The notes below the pieces were generated by a model, which searched no databases, was not told where the DNA came from, and saw only the letters and a program-made list of their open reading frames with translations. This document shows positions 2,002 through 53,041 of a stretch of 64,000 bases of DNA, piece by piece; the stretch's first letter is position 1, and each line of letters opens with the position of its first letter. Source of the stretch: Mucilaginibacter rubeus (lineage in GTDB: Bacteria; Bacteroidota; Bacteroidia; Sphingobacteriales; Sphingobacteriaceae); contig NZ_BMKD01000003.1 of the NCBI RefSeq assembly GCF_014643835.1, forward strand, positions 558,001 to 622,000. Direction: 5' to 3'. The position numbers and the translations under genes were made by a program.

Positions 2002-4872
2002 TTATACCAAGGTTATTTGTTTCCAAGCCTGCCAACTACCGCCTAAACCCGTATAACCGACGCGGATATACATAACTGTAGCGGTATCATATGTAGTTAG
2101 CTCCTGCCTAACTAATTGCGAAGCACATTTTACAGTGGTAAGCAACCCGTTTATAGGAAAGCCATCGCTTGCTAGAGCAAAATCAGTTGAATAGCCGTTA
2201 GGCCAAAGATTAGGTAATTTTGTAGCGGTAATGCCTGACATACCGCTATCAAAATACGTCTGAACAGGCGCTGCTAATTGAACCGGTTTAAAATCTTGCC
2301 AGCCACTCGTTCCGAAGTTATCATAAGAACCAACCCGTATGTACTCAACTGTAGGATTTTGATAATTTGTCAATCTTTGAATAGCAGCAACTGCTCCATA
2401 AGCCCCTTTTGTTGTTAATAACATTCCGCTAATTGGCCATCCGTCACTATTAAAAACAAAATCCACCGATATACCAAACGGATAAGTAGACATCGCTGTC
2501 GTTAATGTTTTCCCGGAATTACCACTGTCAATATACGTGGGAGTTACAACTTTCTGTACTTTTTCCCAAGGGGTAAAAGTATCACCCTGTTCAGCAAATC
2601 CAGTTCTAAAATATTCAACAGATTCGCTACCTCCATAACTATTCAATCTTTGTATGACTTGACTATTTCCTTGTCCACCCCTTGTTGTCATCATAAGGCC
2701 ATTGATGGGAAAGCCATTCGATACTAAAACAAAATCCAATGATATGGCTAATGGATAAGTAGACGGCTTTGCTGCATTTGTAATTCCGGTCGCTCCCCTG
2801 TTATTAACTCCGCCATTTCGATAATATATAGGAAACAAAACTTCAAATGTTTTGGCTGCAATTTCTACGTAAAGCGTGTTTTTTGGATGGATATTACCAT
2901 TACTATAAACAAGTAAATAATCATCAGAATTTTTGCTATCTTGAAGTATCCCGTAAATATCCATAAAACAACATTGATATTTACGAGCCAGAGCCCTTAA
3001 GCCATTATTCAACTCCTCATTCCATATTTGACCGCGGTGATCCATATTATCATCCTGCGTGGTGTTTTGTGATTGCAAGATAATGGAAAGTTTATCCTGC
3101 GTAAAGCTAGCATTTGTCCTAATTATCGATAAGCCAGTATCAATACGATCAATGACATCTTTTGATGTTCCGGGATGTATCCAACCATCATTTATTCCCC
3201 ACCTTAAAATTAATACATCTGGGTTCGCTGCCAAGTCCGCTGCTAAATAAGTATCCAACCATTGTTGTGTCGTTTTTCCTGACTGCCCATTATTAACATA
3301 TGTAACTGCTGATTGAACATATTGACGAGCTGTCATATCTCTTAATAAACTAACTGGGTCATATCCTGTTGTTGACCCATTACCGTAAGTAGTGCTATCA
3401 CCTGACAACACAATTGTTGTAGCGGTTTTTGCTATTAGTTTTTTATGGAAAGCTGATAAATATTCTTCGCCAAAGATCATTGGAGAATCGGCGTAGGCAG
3501 TGTTAGTTTGCTGCTTTGTATTAATTGTTTGCTGTAATATCCTTGCACCTCCTAATATTTTACATCCATATTTATTAACCAAATTGGTTACTAAAAAGTC
3601 ACCAGTATCGAAAATTACAGTGTTTACCGCCAAAGCAGCATTAACCGCCGCCGTATCATCCGTCACACCATCCCCAACAGCTCCATAATCAACCCTGAAA
3701 GATTTAATCTGCCCGGATGGTTCAGACGAGCCGCCCCCGCCACTACCGGAAGGCGCATTAATCCAATGCAAATCACCATCAGTATTGCTGTTTTTTGCCA
3801 GGATCTGCCCACTTGCCCCTCCCGAAGGAATCTTAAATAAACCGGTAATTTGAGCCTGCAGCTTCCCTAATGCCTGTAAAATGCTATCGGTTGCTGATAT
3901 TGCCGAGGCGCTTCCGAATCCGATACCTGTAAGTACAGCGTTTAAAACCCTCGATACCGTGAAATATTTGTTTGTCGCGCCTTCGGGTACAGCATCGGTA
4001 GTACCGGGCGACGCGACAATTTGGATGTATGCCGATCCGCCCCACCTGTATTCATTGTTGGTATCGGTAGTAATATAGATTTTTCCGGTTTCTCCGAGCG
4101 CCGGCAGGGATGCATAATTGGCAATCTCCAGTACATCATCAACATAGCCGGGGAGTTGGGCTGCCGAAATCTTTCCGCTGCCATCTAAACCCGCATAGCC
4201 GTTGGGTGTATTTTTGTTTTCAATTTCCTCAAATTGTGCGCCCGAAACTATCAATGAAATTCCGCTGCCCCAGATACCGGCGGTCTTGGGGCCGAAAAAG
4301 TAATAAGAGGAGGTATTGATATAAAAATCGCCGTCGGTACCCAGGTTGTTTGCCGGATTGGTTGTTCCGTTTAATATGGTTTTGCCGTTTGTACCATTGG
4401 TACCATCCGTTCCGCTTGCTCCTTGTGGTCCCTGCGGGCCTGTTTGCATGGAGAATACCTGGTTCCATGCTCCGGCGGTCTTTTTGTAAAATATGCCGCT
4501 TACGGTGTTTATAAATGTATCGCCATTATTACCGGTTGACGAACTGGGGCTGGTTGTGCCGTATAGCACGGTGGTATCGCCGCTGCTTCCGGTGGCTATG
4601 GTGTAAACAATTGTCCAAACACCTGCTATTTTTTGCGCAAAGGAGCCTGCTGCAGTGTTTATAAATACGTCCCCGTTTTTACCGCTTGTGTTTTGCGGAA
4701 GCACCGGGCCGAAGGTTAGGTTAGCTCCGGCGTTTAGCCCTGAATTGATAAATTGAAGCAGGGTGGCAAAATCGAATTGATAATCGGCATTGTTGCTGAT
4801 CAGGATTGATCTGTCTTCGGTATTTATAGTTTCTGCTATCGGGAGCTCGCTTATTTTTTTATCGTTCGCCAT
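2002..4872 (-). CDS. Phage tail fibre / receptor-binding protein with embedded SGNH esterase and three C-terminal knob repeats
   Basis: This 956-aa mosaic protein has, in order: an N-terminal attachment motif (KKISELPIAETI); three GNNGDTFINT..K.AG.W repeats between about residues 60 and 205; a short collagen-like stretch (GPQGPQGASGTDGTNG, about 145-165); a pectate-lyase-like entry motif (GAVGDGVTDDTAAV, about 395-410); and an SGNH esterase with LSGDSTTYG (about 489), NNGQSG, RWGINDGW (about 559) and NIHPKN (about 661). Three tandem repeats of about 85 residues follow, with the signature DFV..SDGWPI.GML.T and Y.RVG....W..WK. They resemble pyocin-knob receptor-binding domains. It overlaps the upstream connector gene by one base (stop/start). 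It probably binds and deacetylates the host surface. Confidence 0.8.
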   Translation of the reverse strand: MANDKKISELPIAETINTEDRSILISNNADYQFDFATLLQFINSGLNAGANLTFGPVLPQNTSGKNGDVFINTAAGSFAQKIAGVWTIVYTIATGSSGDTTVLYGTTSPSSSTGNNGDTFINTVSGIFYKKTAGAWNQVFSMQTGPQGPQGASGTDGTNGTNGKTILNGTTNPANNLGTDGDFYINTSSYYFFGPKTAGIWGSGISLIVSGAQFEEIENKNTPNGYAGLDGSGKISAAQLPGYVDDVLEIANYASLPALGETGKIYITTDTNNEYRWGGSAYIQIVASPGTTDAVPEGATNKYFTVSRVLNAVLTGIGFGSASAISATDSILQALGKLQAQITGLFKIPSGGASGQILAKNSNTDGDLHWINAPSGSGGGGSSEPSGQIKSFRVDYGAVGDGVTDDTAAVNAALAVNTVIFDTGDFLVTNLVNKYGCKILGGARILQQTINTKQQTNTAYADSPMIFGEEYLSAFHKKLIAKTATTIVLSGDSTTYGNGSTTGYDPVSLLRDMTARQYVQSAVTYVNNGQSGKTTQQWLDTYLAADLAANPDVLILRWGINDGWIHPGTSKDVIDRIDTGLSIIRTNASFTQDKLSIILQSQNTTQDDNMDHRGQIWNEELNNGLRALARKYQCCFMDIYGILQDSKNSDDYLLVYSNGNIHPKNTLYVEIAAKTFEVLFPIYYRNGGVNNRGATGITNAAKPSTYPLAISLDFVLVSNGFPINGLMMTTRGGQGNSQVIQRLNSYGGSESVEYFRTGFAEQGDTFTPWEKVQKVVTPTYIDSGNSGKTLTTAMSTYPFGISVDFVFNSDGWPISGMLLTTKGAYGAVAAIQRLTNYQNPTVEYIRVGSYDNFGTSGWQDFKPVQLAAPVQTYFDSGMSGITATKLPNLWPNGYSTDFALASDGFPINGLLTTVKCASQLVRQELTTYDTATVMYIRVGYTGLGGSWQAWKQITLV

Positions 4873-5486
4873 CAGTTTAAAAATTCGGTTATTGGTAAAT
4901 TGTAATTGTTAATTGTGCCCGGATAGTTGAAATCATTTTTGTCGATACCACGAATCCGTGGACCGGACTGGCGGCTGCTTTTATTCTTTTCGTTGTAGCG
5001 CCAAAGCGGAAAGTTTTCCTGGTTATCTCTTAAAAATTTTTCTATATCATTGGCATAAGCATTGGCTATACTGCGCTGCTGCTGCACCAGTTTTACAATC
5101 TCGGGCGATGAAAGGGCATTGCCGTTATCGTGGCGTTTAATAACTGGTCCAGTTGCAGTGTAGTGTACAGCGTCGTTTTCAATAAAGCGGGCAAAGGTGA
5201 AATAAACCAGGGCGGGAGCGAGGCCTTCGTATAATACGATGCGGCCATACTCGTCAAGATATTCGCTGCCGTTTAACAGATCTTTATAAGCCTGCGGCGC
5301 ATCATCTTTTATAGTGCCGTCATCATTGCAATAGGTTATTAGCTGGTAGTACAAAGCATATCCTAAAAATGGTTTTAGGTCAAGCTCCTGGGCCTTTTTG
5401 ATAAATACTTTGAGCCGTTCGGGTTTAATATTTATGTTAATGTCTTCGTATTGCTGAAATATGGTTTGATTGATTAAATAGATCAT
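4872..5486 (-). CDS. Putative head-tail connector protein (DUF6712-like)
   Basis: This 204-aa protein starts MIYLINQTIFQQY and is largely alpha-helical (KKAQELDLKPFLGYALYYQL, then YEGLAPALVYFTFARFIEND). It resembles connector or adaptor proteins that Bacteroidota phages carry beside the portal. The position just downstream of the portal supports a head-completion role. The family name is from memory of similar sequences, and no structural motif proves it. Confidence 0.5.
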   Translation of the reverse strand: MIYLINQTIFQQYEDININIKPERLKVFIKKAQELDLKPFLGYALYYQLITYCNDDGTIKDDAPQAYKDLLNGSEYLDEYGRIVLYEGLAPALVYFTFARFIENDAVHYTATGPVIKRHDNGNALSSPEIVKLVQQQRSIANAYANDIEKFLRDNQENFPLWRYNEKNKSSRQSGPRIRGIDKNDFNYPGTINNYNLPITEFLN

Positions 5487-9297: not shown

Positions 9298-9894
9298 TTA
9301 GGAAGCTATTGCTTTTTTAACCGCGTTTTTCGCGATTTCAGTTTGCGGGGCAAAAAACGGAGCGGGCTCTGAGTGGGTTTTATTGCTGCGCTTTGAGCTT
9401 TCGGGTATAAAGGTTGATTTGATTTCGTTCTTTACTTCAGTACGTGTTTTCTGCAGGCGGTTGTTGGCTTCCTCAAGCGCGCTACGGGCTTCTGTTAACA
9501 GTGCGTTTTGCGCGTGTAAGCGGGCTTTTAATTGTTGCATGCGGTTTTGCACATCGGCAGGCTTTTTAGCTGATTTAGATTTGCTTTCCGGCAGATCCTC
9601 GTCTTCGTCTTCTGCTTCCGGTGCATTTTCGGGATCGGCAGGTGTTACTGTCTGAATCTTTCCCTGTTTAACGTCCAGTTGTTTGCCATCGGCGCAGGTA
9701 TAAGTATCACTTATGGCAGGTGTAGTCATGTCTTCGTCCTGATAAACCTCGGCGCCTTCTTCAATTTGGCCTGCGTGATGGAGCGTTCCCTTATCGGTGA
9801 TGGTTTGCTTGTTTACCACTTTTTTAAAAAAGTTCATGATCTTGTCTAATACCGATGTGGTCTTTTCAATGAGTTCTTTGTTTTCGATGTTCAT
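9298..9894 (-). CDS. Candidate internally initiated scaffold protein (198 aa)
   Basis: This is in frame with the C-terminal half of the protease gene. The ATG at 9892-9894 (product begins MNIENKELIEKTT) follows a linker rich in Asn codons that looks like an untranslated spacer. Nested scaffold genes inside protease genes are well known from lambda-type phages (gene C/Nu3). Here only the position and sequence of the start support it. Confidence 0.4.
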   Translation of the reverse strand: MNIENKELIEKTTSVLDKIMNFFKKVVNKQTITDKGTLHHAGQIEEGAEVYQDEDMTTPAISDTYTCADGKQLDVKQGKIQTVTPADPENAPEAEDEDEDLPESKSKSAKKPADVQNRMQQLKARLHAQNALLTEARSALEEANNRLQKTRTEVKNEIKSTFIPESSKRSNKTHSEPAPFFAPQTEIAKNAVKKAIAS

Positions 9895-10500
9895 GCTGTT
9901 GTTATTTATGTTTAAGATTTTGTTGATGCATCGCTGGTAAACTGCTGGGGCAGCGTTTGTATAGTTTTTAATAAGCGCGCTGTTAGTGATCTCTGTTTGA
10001 TAATCTTCTATTTGGTTGATAAAGCCGAGATCAAGGGCCTGATCGGCAGTCATCCAAGTGACGGAGTTGATCAAGCTGTTTACGGTAACTCCGTCTAACC
10101 CGGATTTGTCCATGTAGATCTGTGCCAGGCGCTCCTGAACTACATTTAACATTTGTACATCTTTTAAGAGTTCATCGGCGTTGCCGCCTGTGCCAACCAT
10201 AGGTTTGTGAATCATAAGCAATGCGTATTTGCTCATGATCACTTTTCTGCCGCCCATTGCAACAACTGAAGCTGCCGAGGCGGCCAGCGCGTCGATATAG
10301 GTAGTAACTTTACCGGGATACTTTTTAAGCAGATCATAAATAGCGATGGCATCAAATGCACTGCCGCCTACCGAACTGATGTGTACTTCAACGTCATCGC
10401 CCGCTGCCGCCCCAAGTTGGGTTTGTATGTAAACTGATGATAAATTACCCGAACCAATGCAGTCGGTTTCGGTATCGTATAAATAAATTTTGTAGCTCAT
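9298..10500 (-). CDS. ClpP-like prohead maturation protease fused to a scaffold domain
   Basis: Residues 1-190 are a ClpP-fold serine protease: the oxyanion segment ISSVGGSAFDA, nucleophile Ser75 in LAASAAS, and His98 in LLMIHKP. Residues about 200-400 form a low-complexity, acidic then helical region (DEDEDLPESKSKS, then LKARLHAQNALLTEARSALE) typical of scaffolds. The protease cleaves the scaffold and capsid during prohead maturation. An internal ATG at 9894, preceded by an A-rich stretch like a normal spacer, would produce the scaffold half alone (198 aa). The capsid gene follows 115 bases downstream. Confidence 0.8.
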   Translation of the reverse strand: MSYKIYLYDTETDCIGSGNLSSVYIQTQLGAAAGDDVEVHISSVGGSAFDAIAIYDLLKKYPGKVTTYIDALAASAASVVAMGGRKVIMSKYALLMIHKPMVGTGGNADELLKDVQMLNVVQERLAQIYMDKSGLDGVTVNSLINSVTWMTADQALDLGFINQIEDYQTEITNSALIKNYTNAAPAVYQRCINKILNINNNSMNIENKELIEKTTSVLDKIMNFFKKVVNKQTITDKGTLHHAGQIEEGAEVYQDEDMTTPAISDTYTCADGKQLDVKQGKIQTVTPADPENAPEAEDEDEDLPESKSKSAKKPADVQNRMQQLKARLHAQNALLTEARSALEEANNRLQKTRTEVKNEIKSTFIPESSKRSNKTHSEPAPFFAPQTEIAKNAVKKAIAS

Positions 10501-20909: not shown

Positions 20910-22169
20910 TTAGATCAGCCCGTGTAAAACCCCTGCCTGTTGAATGCTTTGCCTGTGCGGCAGGCGCGAGTGGAGTTTTCCGGTACCGTTTATTTTTAGT
21001 TTATTAAGGGCGATATACCTTAAGGGGTCTATCAAATGATTCCATGAGTCAACCGGTTCATTGATGGTTTTGCCTGTTACATTTACGCGCCATTTATAAC
21101 GGTTAAGCTCGTTGCGCAGGTTTGTACTATTGCGGGTTATATTTATTTTGTAGCGTTTAAGGATATCAATAGAGTTTTTAACACTATCGGCACCTTTTTT
21201 TGCAGCTGTAACACGCCACCCCAGGCGTTTTAATTCTTCTATTGATTTGGGTTCTGCACTATCTGCAATAATTTCGCAGTTAAAACCTACACCGGCCTCT
21301 TTTAATTTTGAGGAAATATCTGTGTTGGTGAGGCCTGTTTTGTAGAGTAACTCGTTTACCCACAATTCGCCGTTTTGCTGGTATACTTCAATGCATCCGG
21401 TTTCATCATTGGTAAAACCAAAATCTAAGCCCAGGGCTATCAAACGGGCATCGGCCGGGATAGATTCGCAGATATACCAGTTGTCAAATATAAGCCCGGT
21501 TATTTTGCCGGTTAAACCACGGGCGTATACTTTCCATAGTTCAATATCAACAGTTTTTAACGCTTCTATTTTATCACGTACTTCCTGACCTAAAAACGGG
21601 TTATGCCGATGGTCGGACACTATAAGTTGTACCCCCGGTTTACCAATTAAGTGCTCATGTACCCAAAAGCCGGTATTGGGGTTATAGTCAATAAAAATGC
21701 GCTTTTTGGTACGCAGGGCCAATTCTGTATATACGTCCCATGTAAGGCCATTGGCTTCGTTGATAAACAGGTAGTCGCGCTTTCCGGATTTTGCGTCCTG
21801 TCCGTTGTCGTAGCTTTTAAACTCAATTATGCTACCGTTGAGAAACTCGAAAATACGGTCGCTTTTATTATAGCTTTTAATTTTTGCCTGTAATACCGGC
21901 GAAGAGCTGTATATATTTAGAGCATCGCGCAGGGCGCCTGCTTTAAGGTTAGGGATATCCTGTCCAACTATGGTGATCACCTGTTTGGGGTTTTCGCAGG
22001 CAAGGCAAAACAGCGCCTGCTCAATGGCAAATGTTTTACCGCTGCTGGTGCCTCCCTGGTTAATTACCACATGCGCGGTTGAAAGATAATTTTGTTTGAA
22101 CAGGACAGAGCAGTGAAAACCTTCCGGTTCTTTAAATGGAATGTCGGTGATTATTTCTTCATCGGTCAT
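20910..22169 (-). CDS. terL: Terminase large subunit
   Basis: This 419-aa protein packages DNA into proheads. The N-terminal ATPase has Walker A GGTSSGKT (residues 39-46) and Walker B-like YLFINEAN. The C-terminal RNase H-like nuclease has LGLDFGFTNDETG and IIADSAEP, carrying the metal-binding acidic residues. It belongs to the PBSX/Terminase_3 type. The small subunit lies 48 bases upstream, and the tail chaperone-like gene follows 45 bases downstream. Confidence 0.92.
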   Translation of the reverse strand: MTDEEIITDIPFKEPEGFHCSVLFKQNYLSTAHVVINQGGTSSGKTFAIEQALFCLACENPKQVITIVGQDIPNLKAGALRDALNIYSSSPVLQAKIKSYNKSDRIFEFLNGSIIEFKSYDNGQDAKSGKRDYLFINEANGLTWDVYTELALRTKKRIFIDYNPNTGFWVHEHLIGKPGVQLIVSDHRHNPFLGQEVRDKIEALKTVDIELWKVYARGLTGKITGLIFDNWYICESIPADARLIALGLDFGFTNDETGCIEVYQQNGELWVNELLYKTGLTNTDISSKLKEAGVGFNCEIIADSAEPKSIEELKRLGWRVTAAKKGADSVKNSIDILKRYKINITRNSTNLRNELNRYKWRVNVTGKTINEPVDSWNHLIDPLRYIALNKLKINGTGKLHSRLPHRQSIQQAGVLHGLI

Positions 22170-44758: not shown

Positions 44759-47743
44759 ATGAAAGTTAATTTTATTAACGGTTTAATTTTACGCTCTGCT
44801 GCTTTGTCGTACAGGCAAAAGCTTGATAAAAAAAGCTTGCTTACATTATGGAATAACAGGTTAATCAAAGAAAGTATTTACCTGGCAAGTAAATCGCTTT
44901 ATAATGAACTGGATGCTTTTTTTGCAAACGGGCAGCAAACGAAAGCTAAAGAAGCTCAATTACTATCAAGTTTTTATAAATATATGGCCCGTATGGCAAA
45001 CCGGGCTACGCCGTTTGGGCTGTTTGCGGGTTGTTCATCGGTTTACTGGGGGGCTGCAAATAAAGTAAAACTTACGGCAAAGTTCAGGAGACATGTAGTG
45101 CCCGACGCTGTGGTGAGTTTCTCGCTTGCCAAACAAATTGAAAACTCCAATCAATTATCTGCAGGATATAAGCTGAATAATACCCTTTATAAAGTTGGGG
45201 GCGATTTGCGATTTATTACTTATCAAATTATTGATAACCAGAGGGTTTACCAGGTGAGCGCCATTGCCTGCAATGAGGTGCTTGATGACATAATTGCCGT
45301 TGTTGGTGATAAAATATGGAATAAACAACAACTGCTCGAAAAATTCCCGGATTTTGAGCCTGATGATTTCATTGTGTTTATTAATGACCTTATTGAAGGG
45401 CAACTGCTAAAACCGGCATTTGAGCCGGCAATAGGGTATGATTTTCCGGTCTTTTTGCAAAAGACTGATGATCCGGGATTAAGGGATACCATTAATGAAT
45501 TGGTCGATTTGCTTAATAAAATTAATAATGGAGATGTTGAAAGCTCAAACTGGTTTTCGTTATATACTGCTATTGAACAAATTACTAATCACATAACCGG
45601 CAGGGAACTTAAAGACCAGGTACATGTAACCAGGTTTAACGAGATGGAAAGCCGGGAGCTTGACCAATCATTGCAATGGAAAATAACTAAGGCGATTGTA
45701 TTGCTTAATAATGTGAGTGCCGTGGCTCCCAATAAAAGGATTGAGCAGTTTAAAGGCAGGTTCAGGAAAAGGTATGAGGAGCAGAGCGTACCGCTGCTGG
45801 AGGCATTTGACACCGATACAGGAATCGAATACGGACAATGGTATGAGCATGAAACCCTTTTTACAGAAGGGCTGTACACCGGAAGTGAAGGGGGCCCTTC
45901 GTGGGTGGATTATACAGAAATAGATTTTAAAATGCTCAACCTGTTAAACCGCGCCAAAATTGAAAAACAGTATAAAGTTATTATACCTGATAATTTTGCC
46001 AGGGAACGCAGCCCGGATCATTTGCCATTTTCCATGTCGGCGGTTTTTCAGCTTTTTGAAAACGATATGGTATACCTGGAGAGAGTTACCGGGCCCGGCG
46101 CTTTAAACATGATAGCACGGTTTGCAGTTGGGGATGCCGAAATTTATAAAACAGGTTTAGAGATAGCGGCAAAGGAGATCGCCAACTGCCCGGATGCCAT
46201 GTTTGCCGAAGTGATCCATATGCCCGAAGAACGGATCTTAAACGTCATGATGCACCCGCCTTTCTGGCCCCATGAACTGGCTTATATTGATGATGCCAAG
46301 GGAAGTTCAGTTTTGAGGCTTGACGATATCTACATAAAGCTTGAGCAGGGCGTTTTTAAATTGTTTTCAAAAAAACATCAGCGGGAAGTAGTTCCGCGCT
46401 TAAGCAGTGCTTATAATTATAACAGGTCGCAGCACCCCATTTACACCTTTTTGTGCGATATCCAGCATCAGCGGGGCAATGGCAGCTTAAGTTTTAACTG
46501 GGGGGCACTCTCTACAGATTTTGTATTTTTTCCACGCGTTGAAACCAGCTTTGGCGTTATCCTGCACCGTGCCACCTGGAAGTTTACGCCCGCTATCTTG
46601 GGTGAACTTTGCAAGGCTGAAAAATTCATGGATAAATTCGGCGATTTGTTTAACAGCTTTAGGAATGAGTGGTTACTGCCCGATAAATTTTATATAATAA
46701 AGGGCGATAATGAATTACTGATTGATACTGAAAATGAGATTAGTATACAGGTACTTGCAAAGGAAATAGCAAGGCAGGACCCGGTTTTGATTTTATCTGA
46801 GTGTATTCACCTTCAGCATGAGGCTATTGTACGAGATGTGGATGGCGATCCTTACATGCACCAGTTTGTTGCACCCTTCCATTTCGACAGGCCTTTGAAG
46901 CCCCCATATTTCCAATATATTGAAAATACGCTTCAGCGTAATTTTTTTCCCGGAAGCGAGTGGTTATTTATCAAGCTATATCTCAGCAGTAACATCGCCA
47001 ACGAGGTGCTGTTAAAATTGGATGAACTGTTAAATTATTCAGGTACTGTTAAAATAAAACAATGGTTTTTTATCCGGTACCATGACCCGGATAATCACAT
47101 CCGGGTTAGGATTAATTTGCTTGATGAGGGTGATTTTCAGGATGTTTACCTGGCTGTGCGCGAGGTATTGTCGCCATTTTTGACAAGCGGGCAGCTTCAT
47201 GTTGTACAACTTGATACCTACGTGCGCGAACTGGAACGTTACGGGCAACAAATTGAACAAGCCGAGGGCCTTTTTTGCATTGAAACTTCGTTTTGCTGCA
47301 GCGTATTCAGGCTGCTTGAAAGCAACCGCTATGATACGGAAGACTGGCTCCTGATTTTTTGGCTGATCAAAGATTACCTAAACCTGATGAGCAATGACCT
47401 AAACGACCAACTGCAATTTGTTGAAAGGCAGCAGGCTTATTTTTTTGCCGAGTTTGATGATAAGGCGGTTAAAATACAGATTGATCAATTATATAGAAAA
47501 TATCATGGCAGCCTTAATAACCTGCTTTTAGCATATGATGACCTGCTTCGGCAAAAAAGAATGCAGGTAGAATTACTGCTGCAAAACTACACTATTGATT
47601 GGAATGCGAAGTTTTTGAGCAGCGTGATCCACATGGCAGTTAACCGCTATTTTAGCAGCCGGCAGCGCCTGCATGAGTGCATCCTGTACGGGATGCTCTT
47701 AAAGTTCCTTAAATCGGAAAAAGCCCGTAAAGGGAAAGTATAG
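44759..47743 (+). CDS. LanB1: full-length class I lanthipeptide dehydratase (994 aa)
   Basis: The N-terminal glutamylation part carries NRATPFGLFAGC (residues 81-92), a hallmark of LanB. The C-terminal elimination part (SpaB_C, starting FFPGSEWLFIKLYLSS) has HIRVRI (R782, R784), RELERYG (E824, R827) and IHMAVNR (H958). These align in position with the NisB residues reported for glutamate elimination (Arg786, Arg826, His961). LanB enzymes use glutamyl-tRNA to dehydrate Ser/Thr. The gene lies alone on the plus strand, convergent with the response regulator (1-base gap). Confidence 0.93.
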   Translation: MKVNFINGLILRSAALSYRQKLDKKSLLTLWNNRLIKESIYLASKSLYNELDAFFANGQQTKAKEAQLLSSFYKYMARMANRATPFGLFAGCSSVYWGAANKVKLTAKFRRHVVPDAVVSFSLAKQIENSNQLSAGYKLNNTLYKVGGDLRFITYQIIDNQRVYQVSAIACNEVLDDIIAVVGDKIWNKQQLLEKFPDFEPDDFIVFINDLIEGQLLKPAFEPAIGYDFPVFLQKTDDPGLRDTINELVDLLNKINNGDVESSNWFSLYTAIEQITNHITGRELKDQVHVTRFNEMESRELDQSLQWKITKAIVLLNNVSAVAPNKRIEQFKGRFRKRYEEQSVPLLEAFDTDTGIEYGQWYEHETLFTEGLYTGSEGGPSWVDYTEIDFKMLNLLNRAKIEKQYKVIIPDNFARERSPDHLPFSMSAVFQLFENDMVYLERVTGPGALNMIARFAVGDAEIYKTGLEIAAKEIANCPDAMFAEVIHMPEERILNVMMHPPFWPHELAYIDDAKGSSVLRLDDIYIKLEQGVFKLFSKKHQREVVPRLSSAYNYNRSQHPIYTFLCDIQHQRGNGSLSFNWGALSTDFVFFPRVETSFGVILHRATWKFTPAILGELCKAEKFMDKFGDLFNSFRNEWLLPDKFYIIKGDNELLIDTENEISIQVLAKEIARQDPVLILSECIHLQHEAIVRDVDGDPYMHQFVAPFHFDRPLKPPYFQYIENTLQRNFFPGSEWLFIKLYLSSNIANEVLLKLDELLNYSGTVKIKQWFFIRYHDPDNHIRVRINLLDEGDFQDVYLAVREVLSPFLTSGQLHVVQLDTYVRELERYGQQIEQAEGLFCIETSFCCSVFRLLESNRYDTEDWLLIFWLIKDYLNLMSNDLNDQLQFVERQQAYFFAEFDDKAVKIQIDQLYRKYHGSLNNLLLAYDDLLRQKRMQVELLLQNYTIDWNAKFLSSVIHMAVNRYFSSRQRLHECILYGMLLKFLKSEKARKGKV

Positions 47744-47744
47744 C

Positions 47745-48482
47745 TTACTTGAACATCTTATTATTGAGCAGTGCGAAAAAGCTGTCGCGGTAAGTAACCC
47801 CTATGGGGATCTTTTCTTTAATCTTATCAAAGATCACCATGTTGCCATCAATAGCTTTAATGCGTTTTAAAGCAATAATGTACGATTTATGGGTCCGCGC
47901 AAAATTTTCCTGGGGTAGGGTATCAACCAAGGTTTTCATGCTCACCAACGAGATATGCCGTTCATTTTCTGTAAAAACCGAACAGTAATTTTTAAGTCCT
48001 TCTATATAAATGATATCCTCAAAGTTGATGCGCACAATTTTACCGTGATCGGTTTTCAGGTAAAATGAGTCGGGCTTTGGCTGCAGGTCAATTACCGGCG
48101 CTGGCTTATTAGATGAAAGCAGTATTAGCTTGTCAAGGGCTTTTTGTGAAGCCTGTAAAAACCTGTCGAAAGCGAAGGGCTTAAGCAGGTAATCGAGCAC
48201 ATTGTTTTCAAATCCCGCCAGCGCAAATTCACTAAAGGCTGATGTTATGATGATCTCCGTGCTTTTAGGCAGCATTTTAATAAGGTCGATACCCGAAAGC
48301 TCAGGCATGTTTATATCAAGAAAAATGAGGTCAGTGGCTGATCCTTTTAAATATAATAGTGCTTCAATAGGATTGGTAAACGTTTCGGTAAGGTTAATGA
48401 AAGGCACTTTTGATATAAAATCGCTTAAAATATCAATGGCATAAGGCTCGTCCTCAACTATAATACAGTTAATTACTTTCAT
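47745..48482 (-). CDS. LytTR-family response regulator
   Basis: This 245-aa protein has a receiver domain (VEDEP, phospho-acceptor Asp56 in LIFLDINMPE, DYLLKPF with Lys) and a C-terminal LytTR DNA-binding domain (EDIIYIEGLKNYCSVF, then LPQENFARTHKSYIIAL). The 14-base overlap with the histidine-kinase gene shows co-transcription. It probably regulates the lanthipeptide cluster, directly by position. Confidence 0.93.
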   Translation of the reverse strand: MKVINCIIVEDEPYAIDILSDFISKVPFINLTETFTNPIEALLYLKGSATDLIFLDINMPELSGIDLIKMLPKSTEIIITSAFSEFALAGFENNVLDYLLKPFAFDRFLQASQKALDKLILLSSNKPAPVIDLQPKPDSFYLKTDHGKIVRINFEDIIYIEGLKNYCSVFTENERHISLVSMKTLVDTLPQENFARTHKSYIIALKRIKAIDGNMVIFDKIKEKIPIGVTYRDSFFALLNNKMFK

Positions 48483-49551
48483 GATATTTTAAAGGCATGG
48501 TAAGTTTGCATTCATAGCTATTGTGCGTTTCATCCACCAGTAGTTCATATCCGTCCCGGCCATATTCGTCCGTTAATCTTTCGCGAATATAATTTAATCC
48601 TATCCCGTTCGATTGTATTTTGTTAACGCTGTTATTGTTTTTATAATTAAGCGAATAAAAATGCAGCTTCCCATCTACAACGGTAATGCTCAACACAGCC
48701 TCCTTTGTGCTTTGATTGAAAATGCCGTGCTTAAACATGTTTTCGATGAGGGTAATTAAAACCAATGATACTACCTTATACGGAATAACACCGCTTTCGA
48801 TACTTATCTTCATAAAAAAAGCTTTGCTGCGGTCTTCATGAATTTTTATGAAGTCTTTGATATAGGCAAGCTCACTTTCAAGGCTGCTAAACCCGTCCTC
48901 ATTTTTGGTTAATGCATACCGCATAATGTTTGAAAGTGTGATGATTGATTGTCCTACTTCCGGGAGTTTCTTATAAGTTTCAGCATATAAAAAGCCGAGT
49001 GTATTAAATACAAAGTGCGGATTGATCTGTGATTTTATTACATTTAGTTCGGCCTGAAGGGCTTTCTTTTCAAGCTTTTGCTGTTGTTCAAGTATCTGAG
49101 CCTTTTCTATACTGTGTTGAGCCACTTCGCGTTCCCGTTGTATCAGTTCTCTTGCAAAGCCAAATGCAGCCCCCATTCCGCCAAAATATATTGTGCGCAT
49201 AATAAGGCTGGAGATTTTATCAGGATCGGCCGAAACCTGAAACGACGTATGGTATATCAATGCATCAACCTCAAGCTTAAACAATACCGTTATAGCAATG
49301 ATAGCCGTGGATACTACAAATAAAACAGGTGCCAGAAAAAAAACATTAGTGATCTTCTTACTTATGGCCCTTAAAATTTTCCAGGTGTTATAAAATATAA
49401 TGGCATTTACAATAAAAGCAAAAACAGTGCTTATGTCAATTTTTGAAAAATAGACAACGGCCTCTTCATATAATATATAAATAAGCCATCCAAGCAGGTG
49501 TTGAAAGAATACCCTTATCCTGGATTTTGGCCGCTCTGCATTCGTTGTCAT
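48469..49551 (-). CDS. LytS-type sensor histidine kinase
   Basis: This 360-aa protein has about four membrane helices in residues 15-135, then a coiled coil. The His_kinase box INPHFVFNTLGFL has His179, and the C-terminal HATPase has VLITLIENMFKHG and SNGIGLNYIRERL. It lacks a large sensory domain, like other LytS-type kinases paired with LytTR regulators. It is transcribed divergently from the precursor peptide gene. Confidence 0.93.
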   Translation of the reverse strand: MTTNAERPKSRIRVFFQHLLGWLIYILYEEAVVYFSKIDISTVFAFIVNAIIFYNTWKILRAISKKITNVFFLAPVLFVVSTAIIAITVLFKLEVDALIYHTSFQVSADPDKISSLIMRTIYFGGMGAAFGFARELIQREREVAQHSIEKAQILEQQQKLEKKALQAELNVIKSQINPHFVFNTLGFLYAETYKKLPEVGQSIITLSNIMRYALTKNEDGFSSLESELAYIKDFIKIHEDRSKAFFMKISIESGVIPYKVVSLVLITLIENMFKHGIFNQSTKEAVLSITVVDGKLHFYSLNYKNNNSVNKIQSNGIGLNYIRERLTDEYGRDGYELLVDETHNSYECKLTMPLKYHESN

Positions 49552-49696
49552 AAATTTTTTGTCCTGCTTTTAATGGGTTTGGTCGTCCCCAACGGCGCAT
49601 TGGTACTAATTTTTTCCTCTCCTGCATCCGCTTAGCCACATTTATCCTATAACAACAGATAAATCATCATTCACACCCTTTAAAAAGCTTAAAAGT

Positions 49697-49864
49697 ATGA
49701 AAAATTATAGCAAAGCATCTTTACCAAAGATCCAAATTAAACAAGTGCAAATTTTAAACCGGGCACTTACAAATAACATTGGAAAAAATGGTGGCACTGT
49801 AGATTTCTATATGACTATGACGGGTACTACAACAGAAAAAACTTCAAGTTCAACAGGGTTCTAA
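49697..49864 (+). CDS. Candidate cysteine-free precursor peptide (55 aa)
   Basis: This short ORF is absent from length-limited gene calls. The leader-like N-terminus (KASLPKIQIKQVQILNRAL) is helical and charged and ends at Gly32-Gly33, a double-glycine-type boundary. The tail TVDFYMTMTGTTTEKTSSST ends in GF, and 11 of its 22 residues are Ser or Thr. There is no cysteine anywhere. It lies 63 bases upstream of LanB2 on the same strand and 145 bases from the divergent kinase start. Dehydration without lanthionine formation is the natural expectation. The alternatives are a decoy peptide or spurious ORF. Confidence 0.7.
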   Translation: MKNYSKASLPKIQIKQVQILNRALTNNIGKNGGTVDFYMTMTGTTTEKTSSSTGF

Positions 49865-49927
49865 GGACGAACTTAGATCATATTAAGTATGTCTGTTTTA
49901 TGATAAGAACCATCAGAGGTAACTACA

Positions 49928-52900
49928 ATGAAAACAGCCAAATTATCCGAACAATATAAATTCTCATCGGGCCTGATGTTCAGGTTTCCTGCATTTGATT
50001 GCGTGGAAACAGTTGATAAAGAAACCATCAGGGCATTCACAAAAGATGAATTGTTTATGCAGGCGCTTTGGCTTACCTCTAAAAACTTGTATGAAGCGGT
50101 TTTGCATATAGATGATATTACAGATGCGAAAAAACTGGAGAAGCTTGAAATAACCTTGGCCAAATTTATTAACAGGAGCGCTACTGGCACCAATCCATCA
50201 GGGTTATTTGCAGGTTGCGCTCCTGTTACCTGGGGGAATACGAGCGATTTACAGCTTGGTAATGCTTACCAGCATGTAAGGCTTAATGTTGCCGCAGCGG
50301 TTAATTTGAACGGCCAAATTTTAAATAATCGTGTCATACGGACATTGTTAAGTTACAAGGTAAATAAAACAATGTATACCTTAAACGGGACCTACCTTAA
50401 AATTGACCGTCAAACTGTAAACCGTTGTAAATACAAAGCATCGCCGGTAAAGATATCTGATGATCTGCGGGTGGTTATCGGGTTTTGTGAAAACGCCAGG
50501 ACATACAATTCGATATGCTTATTTATAACGCAAAAACTTGGCAAAACTCCGGAATGTGCCGCTGCTTTTTTGGATCAATTGATTAAAAACCAGGTTTTGT
50601 GGAGTGAGCTTGAACCGTGTATTGAGAGCGGGGAATACCTTGACCAGGCCATTGGCATTTTTACCCGGTTGGCATACCAAAGTGCACAGGCACAAAACTA
50701 TTTATCAAAACTGAAAACCGTTAAGCAGGTGCTGACCGGCACCGATAATGTAATTACAAAAAATAATAAGGTTGCTATGATTTTGAAAGATTTGCCAGGT
50801 GATGCCTCACAGGGGACATTACTGCAGGTTGATTATTTTAGGCAGGCAGATTCGGCTACGCTTGATAAAGCTTATGCTGATAAATTGCTCGATGCCATTG
50901 ATCTGCTTAACCGGATCACACCCAGGCATCAAAGTAAAAACCTGGAAACGTTTATAAAACGCTTCCGCGACCGGTATCATGAGCGCGAGATTTTGCTAAC
51001 AGAAGCGCTTGATCCTGAAAAAGGTATCGGCTATGCCATAAACTGTTATACAGAACCATCTGGCTTTGCAGCTGATAAGGAAGATCTGCAATATACCAGC
51101 GCCGTGAAGTGGCTTATCGGGCAAATTGTTAACAATCCCGGGCAGGAAATTATCCATTTGCAAAAGTCACAGTTTGACGGCGTTAAGGCTTACGATGATG
51201 AGTTACCCCCAAGTTTTTCGGTAATGTTTCGTATTTCGGGCCATGACGAGCCCTTGCTGTATCTTGAACATTGCGGATGGCCGGCCGGTACCTCAATGTT
51301 TGGCCGTTTGGCTAATGCCGAGCGGAATTTTGGCCAGATCCTTGATGAAATAGCCGAAACAGAAACCCGTATTTATGAGCCGGCTATAGTTGCCGAAATT
51401 GTACACACGCCTGATGACTACCTGGGGAGCTTTACCTCCGCACCATATCGGGATTACCGGTTTCAAACGCCGGTAAACACTGGTGACCAGGAAGTTAATA
51501 TAACAGATCTGCTTGTATCTGTTAAAGGAAATAATGTTGTGCTGCGCTCGGCCAAATTAGGCAAACGGATTATCCCCCGCTTAAATACAGCATATAATTA
51601 CGGAATGACAGCCTTACCCATGTACCGGTTCCTGGCCGATCTGCAATGTCAGGATTCAAAATACGAGTTGGGGTTTAATCTTGATATATTACCTAAACTT
51701 GGGGTAACCAAAACGCCAAGGGTAGTTTATGAAGGTGTAATATTAGCCTTAAAAACCTGGTACATCACCAATGCTGATTTACAGCAGCTGTTAAAAGAAC
51801 TGGCAGTTGATTACAACGAAGCGTGGGCGAAGTTTGTTAAATACTGGGATCTGCCTGAGGCTTTTGTTTTTACAGATATTGATAGTGAATTGGTCGTACA
51901 TACTAACAGCAGGCTTGAGGTTGCTGCATGGCTTTCGTCATGCAAGAAAAAGAATGAAATTATTTTAAAGGAATACATTGGCGAACGCGATAATATCATG
52001 CTTAAAAAGAAGGATGAAAAGCTTATCGGTAACCAATTTGTGGCTGTTTTAAAACGGGGCGAAAAGATAGCCGGCAAGTATACCGGTATGGGGCCGCTTA
52101 GTACAAATGCAGCTAAACGTCAGTTTTTCCCGGGGGATGAATGGTTGTATGTAAAACTGTATTGCGGTATTGAAACTGCCGAGCATGTGATAGGCAATGA
52201 GCTGATACAGCTAAGCAAAAAGCTTTACCATGAAGACTTGATTGATCAGTGGTTTTATGTACGTTATGCTGATCCTGAACCTCATATTCGTTTCAGGGTC
52301 CATCTGGCTTCTGTATTTGCATTGGGCAGGGTCATTCAAAATATTAACAATTGCTTTTCGGCCTCAATTAAATCAAAGCAGATCTGGAAGGTTCAGTTTG
52401 ATACCTACGAGCGCGAACTAGAACGTTACGGAGAAGCATCCATTGAGCTTGTTGAACAGTTGTTTTTTAACGATAGCCTTGCCATAGCCAGCCTCATATC
52501 AAGAGCGGATGTGACCGAAAACTTTGAAGAGGTGAGGTGGCTTTGGGGACTGTTATCAATTGACAGGCTGTTGAACGATTTTGATTTTCAGATCGAACAA
52601 AAAAACGAGCTTATGAAGCTGCTTGTAGCTTCATCATATCCGGGCGTTAATTATGATAACCTGCTTTCAAAGCAACTGACTTTTAAATACAGGCATTACC
52701 GTAACAAGATTGAGGGCCTATTTCCCGAAGGCGCCGCGGTTGCAGGCAACGACCTGCTCAGGTACCGGAGTTTAAACAACAGGCCGGCAGCTTTATTGCT
52801 TGCCGAACTTATTTCATCCGGAACGGTGCCGCAAGATTTGAACCTGCTTGTGATCAGCCTTATTCAAATGAGTATGAACCGCTTGTTTAAGACCAGCCAG

Positions 52901-53041
52901 CAGGTTCACGAACTGGGGGTGTACGATTTTCTGCTGCTTTATTATAAAACAGTTTTGCAAAACAAAGAAACGGGTTACAACAATAAATACATTGCCGGGG
53001 TTGTAAATGAGTACATGGCAGGCAGGCCATATCTTCAATAA
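49928..53041 (+). CDS. LanB2: divergent full-length lanthipeptide dehydratase (1037 aa)
   Basis: The SpaB_C elimination part (FFPGDEWLYVKLYCG, HIRFRV with R788/R790, YERELERYG with E830/R833) is clear. Two key places differ from LanB1. The N-terminal motif NR-ATPFGLFAG reads NRSATGTNPSGLFAG (81-96) with a 3-residue insertion. The HM..NR motif near the end reads IQMSMNR (Gln980), so the catalytic His is replaced. It could glutamylate only, act as a recognition partner, or be inactive. The likely operon partner is the 49697 peptide. A terminator follows at 53096. Confidence 0.9.
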   Translation: MKTAKLSEQYKFSSGLMFRFPAFDCVETVDKETIRAFTKDELFMQALWLTSKNLYEAVLHIDDITDAKKLEKLEITLAKFINRSATGTNPSGLFAGCAPVTWGNTSDLQLGNAYQHVRLNVAAAVNLNGQILNNRVIRTLLSYKVNKTMYTLNGTYLKIDRQTVNRCKYKASPVKISDDLRVVIGFCENARTYNSICLFITQKLGKTPECAAAFLDQLIKNQVLWSELEPCIESGEYLDQAIGIFTRLAYQSAQAQNYLSKLKTVKQVLTGTDNVITKNNKVAMILKDLPGDASQGTLLQVDYFRQADSATLDKAYADKLLDAIDLLNRITPRHQSKNLETFIKRFRDRYHEREILLTEALDPEKGIGYAINCYTEPSGFAADKEDLQYTSAVKWLIGQIVNNPGQEIIHLQKSQFDGVKAYDDELPPSFSVMFRISGHDEPLLYLEHCGWPAGTSMFGRLANAERNFGQILDEIAETETRIYEPAIVAEIVHTPDDYLGSFTSAPYRDYRFQTPVNTGDQEVNITDLLVSVKGNNVVLRSAKLGKRIIPRLNTAYNYGMTALPMYRFLADLQCQDSKYELGFNLDILPKLGVTKTPRVVYEGVILALKTWYITNADLQQLLKELAVDYNEAWAKFVKYWDLPEAFVFTDIDSELVVHTNSRLEVAAWLSSCKKKNEIILKEYIGERDNIMLKKKDEKLIGNQFVAVLKRGEKIAGKYTGMGPLSTNAAKRQFFPGDEWLYVKLYCGIETAEHVIGNELIQLSKKLYHEDLIDQWFYVRYADPEPHIRFRVHLASVFALGRVIQNINNCFSASIKSKQIWKVQFDTYERELERYGEASIELVEQLFFNDSLAIASLISRADVTENFEEVRWLWGLLSIDRLLNDFDFQIEQKNELMKLLVASSYPGVNYDNLLSKQLTFKYRHYRNKIEGLFPEGAAVAGNDLLRYRSLNNRPAALLLAELISSGTVPQDLNLLVISLIQMSMNRLFKTSQQVHELGVYDFLLLYYKTVLQNKETGYNNKYIAGVVNEYMAGRPYLQ

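Follow-up and report, generated by a model that had tools for sequence, protein, structure and literature searches.

What does a bacterium do with two full-length LanB proteins that flank a small, Ser/Thr-rich and cysteine-free peptide gene and have no LanC cyclase beside them? The question is raised by a locus of Mucilaginibacter rubeus in a stretch of 64,000 nucleotides (contig NZ_BMKD01000003.1, positions 558,001 to 622,000; hereafter the window), where genes for a LytTR-domain response regulator and a LytS-type histidine kinase also lie between the two lanB genes, here called lanB1 and lanB2 (Table 1). We lean, if only slightly, towards the answer that the locus is a self-contained peptide-pheromone system of the quorum-sensing type, in which LytS would sense a lanthionine-free peptide dehydrated by LanB1, LytTR would mediate the autoinduction of this peptide and LanB2 would act as an adaptor. 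A preliminary description of the DNA had listed a signal among the possible products, and the sensor/peptide cassette described below strongly supports this option. The rest of that interpretation was supported in part: the conserved cysteine-free peptide stood, and the idea of two active LanBs and a Gly-Gly site did not.

The layout itself, two full-length LanBs around a LytTR gene, a LytS gene and a 55-residue open reading frame (ORF), was borne out by Pfam and TIGR03891 matches. The order LanB1-LytTR-LytS-peptide-LanB2-metallophosphoesterase-TMEM260-like is identical in all ten relatives that carry the locus, and the small peptide gene adjoins a membrane kinase and a LytTR-type regulator in the window and in all ten. 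These relatives, which together with the window locus make up the counts out of 11, are M. gossypii Gh-67 (G001), M. sp. SMC90 (G163), M. endophyticus RS1 (G033), M. oryzae DSM 19975 (G029), M. gossypiicola Gh-48 (G019), M. kameinonensis SCK (G137) and G015, G070, G073 and G184; the LanB1 orthologues all come from Mucilaginibacter (Sphingobacteriaceae, Bacteroidota).

The central observation is a short block of extreme divergence within an otherwise conserved locus. Compared with M. gossypii in steps of 150 bp, the DNA of the window is 94-99% identical from LanB1 to about position 49,000 and 85% identical at the edge step, drops to 52, 57, 55, 70 (LytTR repeat and peptide leader), 53 and 56% in successive steps up to 49,967, and is again 93-99% identical to the right of that position. 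Synonymous sites within the block are saturated or nearly so in this comparison, which therefore points to replacement by an old allele rather than to recent drift. The proteins tell the same story: the window and M. gossypii are 98% identical in LanB1, 100% in LytTR, 98% in the kinase part of LytS and 95% in LanB2 versus 44% in the sensor part of LytS and 38% in the peptide core, and for G073 the corresponding values are 97, 99, 99 and 93% versus 41 and 33%. The comparison with M. gossypiicola gives the opposite picture, with LanB1 and LanB2 at 85 and 79% and the sensor and core at 90 and 76%. The window sensor is 37-49% identical to those of eight of the ten relatives, the kinase parts of which are 79-99% identical to its own, and the LytTR regulator is 85-100% identical to those of all ten. 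Pairwise identities show a single history for all parts except the LytS sensor and the peptide.

Phylogenies of the two portions separate in the same manner. The tree of the flanks (LanB1, LytTR and kinase part) groups the window with G001 and G073 with a support of 100 and rejects a group of the window, G184 and G019 (p-AU 6.7e-38 in the approximately unbiased, AU, test), whereas the tree of the cassette (sensor and peptide) groups the window with G184 and G019 with a support of 100/99 and rejects the group with G001 and G073 (p-AU 4.9e-33); the likelihoods differ by 155 and 185 units. The well-supported cassette groups are the window with G184 and G019, G001 with G015 and G033, G137 with G163, and G070 with G029, with G073 standing alone; only the G070-G029 pair is a group in the flanks as well. 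The ends of the core track these groups (TSSSTGF, TGII, TDTMxTxTGF and SGIF, in this order, and TNTGF in G073). Core and sensor also covary when LanB1 is taken into account (partial Mantel r 0.44, p 0.0028; 11 sequences, 5000 permutations), which is not the case for the core and the kinase part, LytTR, LanB2 or the downstream gene (p 0.22-0.71). We interpret the sensor and the core as one exchangeable specificity cassette, of which at least four types occur among the 11 loci, and the exchange itself is visible in the sequences.

The candidate ligand is encoded by the 55-residue ORF, which on comparative grounds is a real gene and more than a chance ORF, because it co-occurs with LanB1, has a constant position and is under constraint. 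A profile of eight orthologues matches 10 of 149 genomes of the genus at E<=0.01, LanB1 is found at E<=1e-150 in exactly the same ten, and the peptide gene sits at the equivalent position in all of them; nonsynonymous divergence (dN) is far below synonymous divergence (dS) in near relatives, with dN/dS pairs such as 0.02/0.15, 0.07/0.23 and 0.10/0.44. The alignments, of 8 and of 11 sequences, show a conserved leader (MKN..KA.LPKIQIK..Q.LNR) and a variable, Thr-rich core that ends in TGF, TGII or SGIF and extends for 26-36 residues past position 22. The cores hold 7-12 Ser/Thr and 1-2 Lys; fewer than two Ser are present in five of the 11 and none in three, and the core of the window has three. 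As described earlier, the final 22 residues of the window peptide include 11 Ser/Thr and no Cys. The expectation that homologous loci would hold a conserved cysteine-free peptide before LanB2 also held true, since it is present in the ten relatives and 10 of the 11 cores are free of Cys, the core of M. gossypii having one. The proposed Gly-Gly boundary did not stand, as GG occurs in three of the 11 cores and at two different positions, and is therefore not a conserved processing site. Weak matches of the ORF to RnlA_toxin_N (0.0072) and a D-amino-acid transaminase (0.039; also in two of the eight orthologues, best 0.0053) were below the cut-off and taken as chance.

The DNA in front of the peptide gene suggests how its expression might be controlled. 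The pattern TTGGTC-N13-CATTGGTACTA is common to 10 of the 11 aligned upstream regions and M. oryzae has one change. It consists of two 9-bp repeats, 12 bp apart, of which the second half-site is invariant in all 11 and the first is altered in M. oryzae; LytTR regulators of the LRS type have been described as binding 9-bp repeats with mostly 12-bp spacing (PMC6193735). A search of the ten genomes with no mismatches (nine genomes) or one (M. oryzae) found the repeat once per genome, solely 5' of the peptide gene. At two mismatches there are 12 more matches, against 32 for a reversed control pattern at up to two mismatches, and the window has a second match with three mismatches at 4376-4405, in its prophage-like part. 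LanB2 starts 60-89 bp 3' of the peptide stop codon and is probably co-transcribed with the peptide.

Several observations count against the pheromone interpretation. The clades contrasted in the AU tests were picked after the identities had been seen. Raw Spearman coefficients are 0.53 for core and sensor, 0.31-0.40 for the core and the kinase part, LytTR, LanB1, LanB2 and the downstream gene, and 0.52 for the sensor and the downstream gene, which before correction is about as high as the value for core and sensor (11 sequences); linkage to neighbouring genes may explain part of the covariation. The sensors of G015 and G033 are 77% identical and their cores 91%, so that sensor and core do not travel as a unit in every case. 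When the ten genomes were searched for a regulon by means of the repeat, the peptide promoter was the only site obtained. Neither an exporter nor a processing protease was matched at the locus (ORFs of at least 200 residues within 8 kb), and C39 peptidase proteins are encoded elsewhere in all ten locus-bearing genomes, with GG not conserved in the peptide. Finally, the cassette pattern is absent from the commoner loci with a single LanB (11 pairs compared); of these control pairs, only one exceeds 90% LanB identity and only three exceed 75%.

Some of these points would also suit a different explanation, namely that the peptide is a secreted antagonist of the bacteriocin type or a public good, that LytS and LytTR sense something else, and that the sensor varies with a ligand from the environment or from competitors while the core is carried along or varies with the range of its targets. 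The products of LanB enzymes are classically antimicrobial, no regulator site was seen besides the peptide promoter, physical linkage by itself would hold sensor and core together after recombination, and the two have diverged at unequal rates in G015 and G033. We nevertheless consider this explanation unlikely. No immunity or exporter gene was recognised among the ORFs of at least 200 residues within 8 kb, and the variable block spans the region from the sensor end to near the start of LanB2, as would fit a receptor-ligand unit. Moreover, the sensor behaves otherwise in the 11 single-LanB pairs (LanB identity 60-93%), where its identity never departs from that of the kinase part by more than 22 points; sensor/kinase identities range from 0.99/0.99 and 0.91/0.91 down to 0.42/0.64, and are never 0.41/0.99.

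The two LanB proteins of the locus are not equivalent. Both score far above the cut-off for Lant_dehydr_N and Lant_dehydr_C and correspond by sequence to the solved structures 9g04 and 5ehk, and LanB1 only also matches the NisB structures 4wd9 and 6m7y. Catalytic residues were read from an alignment of the annotated ORFs to NisB. LanB1 retains Y80, R83, R87, T89, R464, R786, R826 and H961 in all 11 loci and is expected to be a catalytically active, full-length class I dehydratase. LanB2 has F at Y80 and G or S at R87 in all ten sequences that include the region, and Q or E at H961 in all 11, whereas R464 is retained in 11 and R786 and R826 in 10 of 11; the assumption of two working dehydratases had to be given up on these grounds. 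In NisB, Y80F and H961A abolish dehydration and R87A gives an incomplete pattern (PMC4341554), and R786A, R826A and H961A permit glutamylation without elimination (PMC4979651). Among 72 other LanBs that are linked to LytTR/LytS and have no LanC, H961 is retained in all and R87 in 71, the remaining one being a truncated ORF with a gap at this place. Three of the 72 (L143, L156 and L166), otherwise intact and LytTR-linked, carry F at Y80, and F80 alone is therefore not diagnostic. The dN/dS ratio of LanB2 is 0.08-0.14 in the pairs computed, so that it is maintained by selection, as a pseudoenzyme rather than debris, except perhaps in M. oryzae. It is a conserved full-length pseudo-dehydratase, probably serving as an adaptor or as an altered enzyme.

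The LanB2 of M. oryzae (L041/L080) has 763 residues and lacks the N-terminal part, hence its absence from the counts for Y80 and R87. The match begins at residue 277 and there are further catalytic losses, with peptide, sensor and LanB1 retained; LanB2 may be dispensable or in the process of being lost in this species.

LanB2 could also be imagined as a cyclase of the thiopeptide or pyritide type, performing a [4+2] reaction on two dehydroamino acids to give a sulphur-free macrocycle. Known pyridine formation uses two Ser-derived dehydroalanines (Dha), and the five cores with fewer than two Ser count against a pyritide or thiopeptide product. Homologues of the LanB elimination domain do carry out the [4+2] step in thiopeptide pathways (PMC7268733), LanB2 is under purifying selection, and pearlin and pyritide clusters resemble the locus in having no LanC and a precursor without Cys (PMC11002830); theirs are described as truncated LanBs in the same source, whereas both LanBs are of full length here, LanB2 with both domains, and three of the 11 cores have no Ser at all. 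We regard a cyclase role as improbable. A pearlin pathway, which would involve a short, elimination-less LanB, was rejected because both LanBs contain PF14028.

The chemistry of LanB1 might likewise differ from full dehydration, if glutamyl esters were retained or an amino acid were added in a tRNA-dependent manner, or if a Lys or the N-terminal amine attacked dehydrobutyrine (Dhb) to form another cross-link. LanB relatives with further activities have been described (PMC11002830) and each core offers one or two Lys, yet the glutamylation and elimination residues that were tested are intact in LanB1 in every one of the 11 loci, and to us such chemistry seems quite improbable.

Could the locus instead serve an ordinary class I lanthipeptide pathway, with LanC and a precursor encoded elsewhere in the genome? 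The preliminary description had noted the lack of LanC nearby, and indeed no match to LanC, a C39 transporter or a subtilase-type protease was obtained within 8 kb among ORFs of at least 200 residues (smaller ORFs were left unscanned). Across the genus, LANC_like domains are found in 50 and LanB in 96 of the 149 genomes. The genome search for LanC that had been suggested gave a divided answer in the ten relatives: eight contain LANC_like domains away from the locus, which is the point in favour of an ordinary pathway, and there are zero matches in G073 (one contig) and G137 (about ten contigs). The domains reside mostly in frames of 868-916 residues or close to other LanBs, and the closest one that shares a contig with the locus belongs to an 897-residue frame at a distance of about 34 kb (G070). 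Since 10 of the 11 cores are free of Cys and two genomes lack LANC_like, it is unlikely that the locus serves to form lanthionine rings. A canonical product was rejected: the LanB1 residues are present in all 11 loci, but LanB2 has lost key ones, LanC is absent from the locus and 10 of the 11 cores have no Cys, and we consider a pathway completed from elsewhere highly improbable.

An adjacent LanC with a Cys-rich precursor, raised previously as an observation that would speak against the idea of a ring-free product, does exist in at least one locus-bearing genome (M. oryzae, region L096), but beside its own LanB and transporter. In L086 and L096, from two genomes, a canonical cluster of LanB, C39 transporter and LanC lies less than 10 kb from a locus with LanB, LytS, LytTR and a Thr-rich peptide; the L096 cluster includes a Cys-rich precursor with GG (4697-4888).

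The pheromone system that we propose, from gene content, conservation, residue losses, cassette exchange and the single repeat, would operate as follows. LanB1 would bind the conserved leader of the precursor and dehydrate Thr and Ser of the core to Dhb and Dha, giving a product that should be lanthionine-free because there is neither Cys nor LanC, and that is probably linear. LanB2, without the residues for glutamylation or elimination, would probably act as a leader-binding or scaffold partner. Leader removal and export would depend on functions encoded away from the locus. The mature peptide would then bind the membrane sensor of LytS, the kinase would phosphorylate the LytTR regulator, and the latter could bind the repeat with a 21-bp period between lytS and the peptide gene and induce the peptide gene and lanB2 in a positive feedback. 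Enzymes, kinase half and regulator would be common to all types, and only sensor and core exchanged. As the leader is common to all types, one LanB1 could serve them all; this would account for the position of LanB1 and LanB2 beyond the limits of the cassette.

The agr system of Staphylococcus (AgrBDCA) is similar in its small precursor, modifying enzyme, membrane kinase and LytTR regulator, and in the combination of a hypervariable block for ligand core and sensor half with a conserved kinase half and regulator, a likeness that is weaker for G015 and G033. One hypervariable block covers the peptide and the sensor part of the kinase in agr as well, where the promoter is autoinduced and allelic specificity groups are known, as for peptide pheromones of Gram-positive bacteria (PMC10482373). 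The agrB gene lies inside the agr block (PMC10482373), whereas the modifier here is a LanB outside the variable block; the product cannot be a Cys thiolactone, the kinase is of the LytS type (PF06580) and the host is a Gram-negative member of the Bacteroidota.

NisRK is the two-component system of the nisin locus, and nisin-type class I systems share with the window locus a LanB with catalytic residues, a leader-bearing precursor and a two-component system. They differ in that LanC, Cys and LanT/LanP are absent here and an extra, catalytically degenerate LanB is present. Lanthipeptides of Bacteroidetes are reportedly the subject of a 2020 paper by Caetano and others. Nisin is known to induce its own synthesis (PMC4341554). 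A cluster of Pedobacter heparinus, also of the Bacteroidota, has two LanBs but includes LanC and LanA, and LanBs not near LanC were noted in Spirosoma and Microscilla in 2010 (PMC3091789). Mining based on LANC_like (PMC7268733) is blind to LanB loci without LanC, and the Bacteroidales genomes of one survey have no LanB (PMC10352776). Among the matches listed from the open-licence literature, we recognised no paper on this kind of LanB/LytS/LytTR/peptide locus and no report of pheromone specificity groups in the Bacteroidota; this is weak evidence that none are known. If the proposal is correct, it would add a signalling system to a soil- and plant-associated genus, give LanBs without LanC a function and make a dehydrated peptide the ligand of a receptor. 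It would also provide natural sensor/ligand pairs in which swaps could probe specificity directly.

Loci with LanB, LytS, LytTR and a Thr-rich peptide and without LanC are common in the genus and present elsewhere in the family. We examined 88 regions at other LanB places, 84 from the genus and four from two more distant genomes, with a hidden Markov model (HMM) that was built from six seeds picked by eye and run in four rounds over 6,430 small ORFs. It gave 70 matches, seed loci included, and none at E<0.01 among shuffled ORFs over five rounds. Of these peptides, 62 are encoded divergently and at most 1.2 kb from LytS or LytTR; 63 have one of these genes as a neighbour, at a median distance of 93 bp. 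Cys is missing from the C-terminal 28 residues in 61 of the 70 and from the whole peptide in 43, and Thr accounts for 29% of this C-terminal stretch. Among the 88 LanB ORFs of at least 500 residues, 60 have LytTR, LytS and a peptide and no LanC within 6 kb, eight have LanC (two of them, both in L096, also LytS and a peptide), and 20 show other combinations. The order LanB-LytTR-LytS-peptide is common to this wider family, to which the window locus adds LanB2.

Upstream of these peptides, within 300 bp, a direct repeat with a spacing of exactly 21 bp is found at 8/10 bases in 28 of the 70 loci (other spacings 10.3 +- 2.8, highest 15) and at 8/9 bases in 12 (3.7 +- 1.7), with no excess at 9/10 bases (two loci; 1.3 +- 1.1). 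The motif of the window itself, as TTGGT-N16-TTGGT, precedes four of the 70 other loci, and little was gained from it. Scans of 25 family peptides gave zero Pfam matches and one NCBIfam match, to a class I lanthipeptide leader (E 0.038). The HMM matches the window-type peptides, a set of only 11, with E values from 1.9e-8 (M. sp. SMC90) to 0.28 (window) and 0.35 (G184); kinship appears likely for some and weak for the form of the window. Outside the genus, 31 regions, hand-picked from the matches of a LytTR-type LanB and hence biased, comprise 25 with LanB, LytTR and LytS and without LanC, four with LanC and two with LanB alone; 22 have a peptide match (E<0.1), against 0-1 of 2,123 per round in shuffled controls. 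Across the order, 230 of 400 genomes and 12 of 22 genera had a match to a LanB of any kind. We give roughly even weight to the idea that full-length LanBs without LanC represent a large, unnamed signalling class of the Sphingobacteriaceae, with Dhb-rich, uncyclised peptides sensed by LytS/LytTR, of which the window locus would be a form with exchangeable pherotypes and a pseudo-dehydratase. Such a class would bring quorum sensing by pheromones of the ribosomally synthesised and post-translationally modified kind to the Bacteroidota.

Two variations were seen in these regions. A single Cys occurs in a DPTxxCTT core in L084 (5005-5163), L143 (10882-11034) and L166 (4361-4519), with no LanC matched within 6 kb. 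Two tandem, near-identical peptide genes are present at one LanB locus in L217 (10109-10453) and L197 (9053-9327), both outside Mucilaginibacter.

Table 1. Coordinates of the LanB/LytS/LytTR/peptide locus in the window.
Feature	Position	Strand	Remarks
LanB1	44759-47743	+	994 aa; PF04738 3.7e-96, PF14028 3.7e-46; TIGR03891
LytTR-domain response regulator	47745-48482	-	PF00072 and PF04397
LytS-type histidine kinase	48469-49551	-	PF06580 (His_kinase)
LytS membrane sensor	~49,050-49,551		N-terminal residues 1 to ~165; remainder is the conserved kinase part
Hypervariable exchangeable cassette	49050-49967	none	limits approximate (150-bp steps); LytS sensor half, divergent intergenic region and peptide gene, as far as the LanB2 start
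LytTR-type direct repeat	49579-49608	+	TTGGTCGTC-12 bp-TTGGTACTA; 21-bp period; 88 bp 5' of the peptide start codon
Precursor peptide ORF	49697-49864	+	55 aa; orthologues in 10/149 genus genomes
LanB2	49928-53041	+	1037 aa; PF04738 5.2e-85, PF14028 2.3e-53; TIGR03891

The sensor part of LytS has 2-5 hydrophobic stretches, some of which overlap. AlphaFold models of LytS and LanB2 (mean pLDDT, the predicted local distance difference test score, of 49.5 and 39.7) were of too low quality to serve as evidence. The metallophosphoesterase 3' of LanB2 was rejected as a member of the system, since 85 of the 149 genus genomes have a close match to it (E<=1e-80) and the locus is absent from 75 of these 85. 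At the other end of the window, a prophage-like block (1258-22709, minus strand), with long ORFs on one strand, includes the large subunit of a terminase (20910-22169; PF17288/PF04466) and a Clp-type protease (9298-10500). The virus record G002 has 29% of the sampled words of the window in common, for which this block is possibly the reason.

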